A stretch of 64,000 nt of DNA from Egicoccus sp. AB-alg2 (lineage in GTDB: Bacteria; Actinomycetota; Nitriliruptoria; Nitriliruptorales; Nitriliruptoraceae), in the NCBI RefSeq assembly GCF_041821065.1, contig NZ_JBGUAX010000005.1, positions 62,001-126,000 on the forward strand. The letters run 5' to 3'. Below, in pieces: positions 22,412-54,071 of the stretch. The translations under genes were made by a program, and so were the position numbers. The first letter of the stretch is position 1, and each line of letters opens with the position of its first letter. The notes below the pieces were generated by a model. The model was not told the origin of the DNA, made no database searches, and worked only from the letters and a program-made list of their open reading frames with translations.

Positions 22412-22413
22412 CC

Positions 22414-22806
22414 TCAGCCGAGTTGACCGCCCGGTGCACCGTGGGCCGGCCGACCGTCCGCCGCCAGGAACCGCTCCCACCAGTCGGCCCGCTGCAGCAG
22501 CAGGTGCAGGTCCAGCAGGTCGTCGCGGGTGAGCGGCGGGAAGCTCGGGTGCCGTGGCCTGGGTGGCGGCGGTGGCGGCTCGGCCCGGACGGTGCCGTAG
22601 CGGCGCGGCCGTGCCCCGTGCGACCGCAACAGCTGCAGCTGCGGCTCGTCGAGCTGCGTGACGGTGCGCAGCGAGCACGCCGAGCACCGGAACGAGTAGT
22701 ACGACGGCTGCGGCTCCGGCTCGTCGACCCAGATGATGAGGTCGATCGCGTCACCGGCGACGACGACGTGACCGCAGTGGCGACAGACGACGCGGATGCG
22801 GCTCAC
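22414..22806 (-). CDS. Hypothetical protein with zinc-ribbon-like cysteines
   Basis: 130 residues. Two CxxC knuckles, CRHC near residue 8 and CSAC near residue 41, separated by an acidic beta segment, suggest a small zinc ribbon. A poly-Pro stretch (about residues 77-86) and a helical C-terminal part (DDLLDLHLLLQRADWWERFLA) follow. No family is recognised. It ends three bases from the convergent DUF58 gene. Confidence 0.7.
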   Translation of the reverse strand: MSRIRVVCRHCGHVVVAGDAIDLIIWVDEPEPQPSYYSFRCSACSLRTVTQLDEPQLQLLRSHGARPRRYGTVRAEPPPPPPRPRHPSFPPLTRDDLLDLHLLLQRADWWERFLAADGRPAHGAPGGQLG

Positions 22807-22891
22807 GATCCTGCCTCCTCGAACGGCTCACATCGAGCATGACGCGCACGACCCACGGGCGGCTGAGCGATCGCTGCCGAAACGCTGACGG

Positions 22892-49903: not shown

Positions 49904-52469
<2,566 letters not shown>

Positions 52470-52483
52470 CCCGGGAAGGGCGC

Positions 52484-52640
52484 CGCTGCGGGTGCGGTGG
52501 TCACCTGCCACGGCTGCGACGTCACGCCCGCTGCGGGTGCGGTGGTCACCTGCCACGGCTGCGAGGTCACGCCCGCTGCCGGTGCGGTGGTCACCTGCCA
52601 CGGCTGCGAGGTCACACGCCCGCTGCGGGTGCGGTGGTCG
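52484..52640. repeat. 45-bp tandem repeat, three full copies plus part of a fourth
   Basis: Copies start at 52484, 52529, 52574 and 52621, each with CGCTGCGGGTGCGGTGGTCA, then CCTGCCACGGCTGCGA and GTCACGCC. The third copy has two extra bases. The fourth diverges after 20 bases and runs into the left arm of the palindrome. There are no spacers, so it is not a CRISPR array. Confidence 0.9.
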
Positions 52641-53033
52641 CCTCCGCAGGGGGCGCTTCGCTCGCTCTCGGTTCGCGCCGGGGGCGCTCCCGAGATAGCC
52701 CCTGCCACGGCGACCACCCCACCCTCCGCTCCGGGGTCGGCCCCGCGCGCCGTCCCCCCGGGCTGGACGCGTCGGATCCGTCCGGTCGCGCCTGCCGGCA
52801 ACGGTCGCGCGTCGCTGCCGCGGCGTGGCACCCAGCCGCGACCGTTGCCGGCTCCCGCGACCGAACGACCCGCGCGGTGCCGCCGGGGCCAACCGCCGCA
52901 ACGGCCGAGGGAGCGGAGGGGCGGGTGGTCGCCGTAGCAGGGGCTGTGAGCGAGCGAAGCGATGCTCACGAGTGGAGCCGAGTGTCAGGGGCGGAACGCC
53001 CCCTGCGAAGGCGACCACCCGGCCCGCAGCGGG
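52619..53033. repeat. Concentric long imperfect palindrome
   Basis: Three pairs of inverted arms share one centre near 52823: 52619-52655 with 52997-53033 (33 of 37 match), 52697-52732 with 52910-52945 (33 of 36), and 52783-52809 with 52837-52863 (24 of 27, including a perfect 15-base core CCGGCAACGGTCGCG). Segments between the arms are unrelated. A small hairpin GTGAGC...GCTCAC lies inside the right part (near 52946-52969). It could be a non-autonomous mobile or recombinogenic element; no transposase is present. Confidence 0.8.
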
Positions 53034-53102
53034 GGCATGGACGCGACCCGGCCCCGGGCGGGGGCAGGGACGCCGCCCGCCCCGGACCGCGGGCGCGGGG
53101 CG

Positions 53103-54071
53103 TCAGGCCTTGGTGATCTCGTCGATGCGTGCGAGGACGTCGTCGGTCAGCTTCGGCAGCACCTCGAGGGCCGCCATGTTCTCGTGCACCTGCTCGACCC
53201 GCGACGCGCCGGTGATGACGGTGGACACGTTCGGGTTCTTCGCGCACCAGGCGATGGCCAGCTGGGCGAGCGAGCAGCCGAGTTCGTCGGCGACGCCCTT
53301 GAGCTCACGCACGATCGCGTTCTGCTGCTGATCGGTCAGGCGCTCCGCGAGCCAGCCGAACCCCTCGAGCGCGCCGCGGCTGCCCTCCGGGACGCCGTCG
53401 AGGTACTTGCCCGTGAGCAGGCCCGACGCCAGCGGCGACCAGATCGTGGTGCCCAGCCCGACGTCCTCGTAGAGGCGCGCGTACTCCTGCTCGACGCGCT
53501 CGCGGTGGAACAGGTTGTACTGCGGCTGCTCCATCACCGGCTTGTGCCAGCCATGGCGGTCGGCGACGTCCCAGGCGGCGCGGATCTCGTCGGCGCTCCA
53601 CTCCGAGGTGCCCCAGTACAGCGCCCAGCCGCGCTCGATAGCGTCCGACATGGCGCGGACGGTCTCCTCGATGGGCGTGTCGGGGTCGGGCCGGTGGCAG
53701 TAGATGAGGTCGAGGTACTCCAGGCCGAAGCGCTCGAGCGAGGCCTCGATCGCCTCCAGCAGGTACTTGCGGTTGAGCGTGTTCTTGCTGTTGGGACCCG
53801 CGTGGAGGCCCCAGAAGTACTTCGACGAGACGAGGTAGCTGTGGCGCGGCCAGTCGAGCTCCTGGATCGCCTGGCCCATGATCCGCTCGGACTCGCCGCC
53901 GGCGTAGGCCTCGGCGTTGTCGAAGAAGTTCACGCCGGCCTGGTAGGCGGCGTCGAGGCACTCGACCGCCTTCTGGACGTCGACCTGGTTCTTGAACGTC
54001 ACCCACGAGCCGAACGACAGCACGCTGACCTTGATGCCGGCGTTGCCGAGACGGCGGTACTGCATCTCCAT
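53103..54071 (-). CDS. Aldo/keto reductase, Kv-beta-like (AKR6-type)
   Basis: 322 residues. NADPH-dependent carbonyl reductase barrel with the tetrad visible as [11 protein letters not shown] (Asp, Tyr), VSSKYFW (Lys) and LIYCHRPD (His), plus the cofactor segment [14 protein letters not shown]. The Kv-beta-type features [19 protein letters not shown] and [19 protein letters not shown] support the subgroup. ATG at 54071 with CGGAG upstream. Substrate unknown. Confidence 0.93.

Follow-up and report, generated by a model that had tools for sequence, protein, structure and literature searches.

What is a 633-bp block of inverted and tandem repeats doing between two genes that end face to face? 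The block (52470..53102, no strand assigned) lies in the window, by which we mean the whole 64,000-nucleotide stretch of Egicoccus sp. AB-alg2 DNA analyzed here, and it is exactly the space between the stop codon of guaB1 (52469, plus strand) and that of an aldo/keto reductase gene (53103, minus strand). The guaB1 gene (50595..52469, plus strand) encodes a GuaB1-family GMP reductase/IMPDH-related protein (NF005869, 823.9 bits; NF052358, 796.2 bits; PF00478), whose true start is probably further inside the predicted open reading frame, while the facing downstream gene (53103..54071, minus strand) matches the aldo/keto reductase family (PF00248, E 1.2e-69). An earlier note, made from the sequence alone, saw in this space a concentric palindrome fused to a tandem array and proposed that it may be a non-autonomous mobile element, a replication or recombination hotspot or a long structured RNA.

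The palindrome itself is present as described. It is imperfect, 415 bp long and centered near 52823, and its arms are concentric, with the centers of the three longest inverted pairs falling near 52821-52826. These pairs are 52619-52661/52991-53033 (43 nt, 86% identity), 52697-52732/52910-52945 (36 nt, 92%), and 52779-52822/52824-52867 (44 nt, 80%), and a shorter pair at 52654-52667/52948-52961 (14 nt) is identical throughout (100%). Arm identity in the three main pairs is therefore 80-92% rather than the 89-92% claimed, and the segments between the arms, which had been taken as not complementary, are partly so: a gapped alignment spans the whole 415 bp at 72%, and each half of the palindrome contains a complete hairpin of its own (inverted pairs I4 and I5). 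Aligned against its own reverse complement, the block scores 212 bits, compared to a maximum of 75.4 and a mean of 47 for 60 dinucleotide shuffles, and its RNA folding z-score is -11.4, with 0/20 shuffles folding equally well. The 45-bp array that merges into the left arm is also borne out (52483-52643, 3.5 copies, 94% matches), the fourth unit matching for ~24 bp before it turns into the arm. A second, shorter array of 29-bp units (2.8 copies, 53015-53094) lies at the right edge, such that there are arrays at both outer ends. No terminator-like site (a GC-rich hairpin with a T-tract) occurs in 52300-53300, where hairpins are present and the T-tract is absent; the block contains no promoter-like site; and neither Rfam matches at the gathering score nor tRNA or tmRNA genes were found across the window. 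Inverted repeats are absent from the one further long gap between convergent genes in the window (22412-22891).

Two dispersed palindrome families, which we call M1 and M2, account for the genomic matches of the block. When the block was used as a query against the organism's own genome (G000; 4.84 Mb, 29 contigs, 98.5% complete), it gave 65 DNA matches, nearly all of them to parts of the block. The layout that emerges is an outer-arm array, M2, M1, an inverted M2, and a second outer-arm array. On the left, three 45-bp units (52483..52618, plus strand) begin with the outer (5') arm of M2, the 45-bp repeats being copies of this arm, and they lead into a 113-bp M2 hairpin of loop type A (52619..52731, plus strand), assigned by model R2 and by alignment A3 with its covariation. 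The central palindrome of ~80 bp, M1 (52778..52865, no strand assigned), was located with model R1 and a pattern search, and it is followed by an inverted 123-bp M2 hairpin of type B (52911..53033, minus strand; model R2). The 29-bp units of the right array (53015..53094, minus strand) overlap and extend the outer arm of this second M2.

The modules recur at many places, and the block is neither unique nor unconserved. For M1, model R1 gives 56 matches that correspond to at least ~28 places, most matched on both strands, and a pattern search independent of R1 gives 24 forward and 23 reverse matches, compared to 1 and 0 in the control; the latter adds a place at C13:80945, bringing the total to at least ~29. 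For M2, which has loop types A and B in hairpins of 113-123 bp, model R2 finds at least 13 places in the same genome. Both sets of counts are lower bounds, as the models scored only the 103-150 top candidates from a permissive initial scan. The two modules also occur singly, and their combinations vary between sites: two inverted M2 copies frame one M1 in the window, M2 and inverted M2 are likewise found around M1 copies at C3:239-240, and neighboring M1 copies are often 104-107 bp apart. Contig C5 holds 9/24 element-bearing gaps while making up 10% of the genome (binomial p 4e-4). Several individual sites deserve mention. At C5:402.7-402.9 kb, the end of the upstream gene, including its stop codon (GCCGACAAGTGACGGCGG), is present ~3 times in tandem before an M2. 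At C3:239626-240811, a deaminase gene (PF00383) beside an HPPD-like gene lies between two inverted M2 copies; it is kept with one or more M2 copies in G002 and G003, whereas the G001 site has no predicted gene and half an M2 remains, so that the inverted pair may frame a gene that was gained or lost.

The whole composite is present a second time at C5:328451-329127, ~214 kb from the window block, with a luciferase-like gene and a leucyl-tRNA synthetase gene as its neighbors. The type A and type B M2 copies of the window are each 98% identical to their counterparts there (C5:328570-328682 and C5:328988-329110, respectively), and the M1 copies are ~86% identical. The ends of the composite are inverted (CCCGCTGCGGG ... 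CCCGCAGCGGG), and similarity between its two copies is lost just beyond the right end. At the corresponding site in G001, M1 and M2 are absent and the gap is ~111-117 bp, compared to ~703 bp here. A third dispersed palindrome (GCATGCGTGCATCC...GGATGCACGCATCCG) is found inside the second composite (C5:328854-328934); it has about ten other matching places in the same genome and a few in G003, and its motif is not enriched in the window.

When the guaB1/aldo/keto reductase junction is compared with that of three relatives in the genus, in which the orthologous guaB1 loci show 86% identity, the stop-to-stop gaps are 22, 3, and 3 bp versus 633 bp here. The block is therefore inserted DNA, the composite having either entered or grown within a gap that measures 3-22 bp in the relatives sampled. 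No target-site duplication is evident in comparison with these three relatives, the strong divergence of the flanks limiting how firmly this can be read. The gene ends flanking 17 other sites were also searched for in relatives, and both flanks were found for seven. Six of these seven gaps (C1:526, C13:56, C1:438, C5:320, C2:329, and C6:336) are shorter in at least one relative (182-357 bp here versus 3-105 bp), a comparison of lengths in which diverged modules in the relatives were checked through models R1 and R2 only. The C17:34 gap is not clearly shorter in G001 (425 vs 435 bp).

Beyond the genome of the window, M2 is found in G002 and G003 and, in diverged form, in G015, a single-contig genome of another genus in which it again lies between facing genes. 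Type B is the form seen in the relatives within the genus, and half an M2 is kept in G001, beside which (C1:920880-921160) a unit GGTTTCCGTCGTGGGCGCGGG(A/T)AACCGC, or nearly so, occurs twice. M1 is present in G000, with weaker matches in G002 and G015 and one in G023. A degenerate M2 pattern searched against genome contigs matches the G002 record JAGXST01 (an actinomycetote MAG), and it also gives single matches in unrelated records, possibly by chance. A literature search on such repeats in Nitriliruptor-like bacteria or actinobacteria returned nothing relevant.

The M1 and M2 copies are intergenic, any overlap with a predicted gene being limited to a few bases, and they favor the 3' ends of genes. 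The element-bearing gaps comprise 11 convergent, 10 tandem, and 1 divergent (C5:189), whereas the control set, taken from gaps in the window that reach 80 bp or more, comprises 1 convergent, 15 tandem, and 9 divergent (Fisher p = 4.5e-4 for convergent). Orientation was classed by hand on the basis of codon-position gene predictions, and the control represents a single window instead of the genome. In most of the tandem gaps, the distance from the element to the stop of the upstream gene is shorter than that to the start of the following gene. Facing gene pairs in the window are mostly separated by 39 bp or less, which leaves no room for a module.

The structural constraint on the two modules differs. 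In alignment A3, for which 20 M2 copies were drawn from four genomes representing two genera, both sides of the stem change in 12/23 pairs, and 47 cells covary, compared to 13.1 +/- 2.7 in shuffled alignments and 2-7 with slid partners. Only 3 of the paired cells in M2 are G-U. M1 displays little covariation (1/17 pairs), and its conserved GTCGCG/CGCGAC motifs may reflect either recent spread or a putative binding site. The hairpins are predicted to be very stable. The near absence of G-U in M2 fits either a need for both strands to fold or repair of one arm from the other by template switching.

There is also a polarity to the way in which the modules are combined. M1 lies within 160 bp of M2 in 10/13 of the M2 copies listed, and in 10/10 of these cases, it is on the 3' side. 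Partial copies of the M2 5' arm are found 18 times upstream (at 10/13 of the M2 copies listed) and 0 times downstream, and extra copies of the 3' arm are found on neither side of the listed copies. These polarity counts are not all independent, as some copies (the window and C5:328) share ancestry. Other M2 arm arrays consist of 24-bp units (C13:56) and of units of ~72-76 bp (C7:274). A more doubtful interpretation is that M2, its outer-arm array, and M1 travel together as one compound unit, by a so far undescribed mechanism that works from one end and does not depend on a RAYT; partial outer arms would then be added on one side only, with M1 always carried on the other.

When compared to known repeat systems, the block most resembles REP and BIME sequences, which form comparable mosaics in E. 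coli. Like these, M1 and M2 are extragenic palindromes in many dispersed copies that prefer gene 3' ends, and the order M2 - M1 - inverted M2 places palindromic units in alternating orientation. A REP is defined as a unit of 20-40 bp, one end of which bears a GTAG or CGTC tag (PMC3733652), whereas M1 is ~80 bp and M2 is 113-123 bp, and M1 edges carry GTAG in 1/23 and CGTC in 7/23 copies, which is no consistent tag. There are also fewer copies here, and no Y1/RAYT transposase (PF01797) is matched in the 98.5% complete genome, while the same profile matches 5/14 control genomes, E. coli included. The block works like a REP/BIME that lacks two defining features, the tagged 20-40 bp unit and the RAYT transposase. 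CGTC-tagged REPs have been reported without a dedicated transposase (PMC3733652), and this likeness is tempered by the low frequency of CGTC edges in M1. REPINs are hairpins formed by REP doublets and moved by a RAYT. M1 recalls them in being two inverted half-units that form one hairpin of similar length, and its spacing of 104-107 bp is a little like the regular spacings of repeats in P. fluorescens SBW25 (PMC3116915); unlike REPINs, however, it has neither RAYT nor tag, and its copies number in the tens, not the hundreds. On anatomy alone, integron attC sites and CRISPR were set aside.

Several other explanations must be weighed against a REP-like origin. It is possible, though on balance unlikely, that selection keeps the modules as two-way terminators or 3' end stabilizers for facing genes, with mobility being secondary. 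The bias toward the 3' ends of genes and toward facing pairs, the very stable hairpins, the retention of the M2 stem through two-arm changes across two genera, its position between facing genes in G015 as well, and the 3 wobble cells expected if both strands must fold all speak for such a role. On the other hand, the block is devoid of a T-tract or a terminator-like site, and since orthologous gaps are mostly without modules and most facing pairs are so closely spaced, the modules are not required. Alternatively, and somewhat less plausibly, the symmetry of the palindrome could be a mutational product in which template switching between the arms keeps them matched in the absence of selection or mobility. 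Such switching can, according to a published description (PMC8794818), both generate and repair hairpin stems, and it would account for compensatory changes in which G-U intermediates are almost missing; however, it does not explain why modules are found in more than 20 gaps, why the composite is duplicated, or why sites are empty. Template switching and a REP-like spread can act together.

MITEs are short, non-autonomous elements with inverted ends and a target-site duplication. M1 and M2 are likewise short, non-autonomous modules with inverted ends inserted between genes, and the inverted composite ends, together with the divergence just beyond the right one, would suit a classical MITE derived by deletion from an insertion sequence with a DDE transposase, terminal inverted repeats, and target duplication. 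This origin is nonetheless improbable, as there is no longer parent element among the 65 DNA matches, no target duplication is evident between the strongly diverged flanks, and the modules occur singly and in varied combinations. The proposal of one long structured RNA of ~633 nt draws on the folding z-score of -11.4, but it is highly improbable given that the modules occur separately, that Rfam has no match in the window, that there is no promoter-like site, and that the site is empty in relatives; strong covariation is confined to the M2 module and does not support a 633-nt unit. Finally, long inverted repeats are prone to misassembly, and the block is a repeat of this kind. Two contig ends (C13 and C14) bear M1- or M2-related repeats, which may break assembly. 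That the block is an assembly artefact is still very unlikely, because many contigs carry the modules, as do relatives whose genomes were assembled independently, among them the single-contig genome of another genus.

We therefore favor, with a probability of about 0.8, the interpretation of the block as a REP/BIME-like mosaic, in which two families of non-autonomous intergenic palindromes would have been spread by trans-acting or replication-based copying and be tolerated at gene ends. The mobile-element proposal of the earlier note is largely supported by the dispersed modules, the site that is empty in three relatives, and the second composite on C5; it does not hold for a single element, as the block is a mosaic of separable modules, and the search for a mobilizing enzyme, which covered Y1 transposases in the organism's own genome, was negative. 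The suggestion of a recombination hotspot receives partial support from the tandem arrays of M2 arms and from the duplication of the composite, insofar as such events can be read from sequence. In the REP-like interpretation, M1 and M2 would be copied by a trans-acting or replication-based process rather than by a RAYT resident in the same genome, and they would persist mainly where harm is least, downstream of stop codons and above all in the gaps between facing genes. At the outer arm of M2, slippage or unequal exchange probably gave rise to the arm arrays. Readthrough from either side would yield stable hairpins on both strands, a possible two-way barrier or 3' end cap, and the cellular role is most likely none or mild, amounting to predicted hairpins in both readthrough transcripts behind the gene ends.

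Three things are unusual in this system: no Y1 transposase is matched, the arm arrays lie on one side only, and a stem that covaries strongly contains hardly any G-U pairs. The last of these makes M2 a clean test case for distinguishing two-strand selection from template-switch repair. For readers of genomes, a striking palindrome is here ordinary repeat DNA and not a new RNA, and a REP-like system in an actinobacterial lineage without a detectable Y1/RAYT bears on how repeats spread when the usual enzyme is absent.
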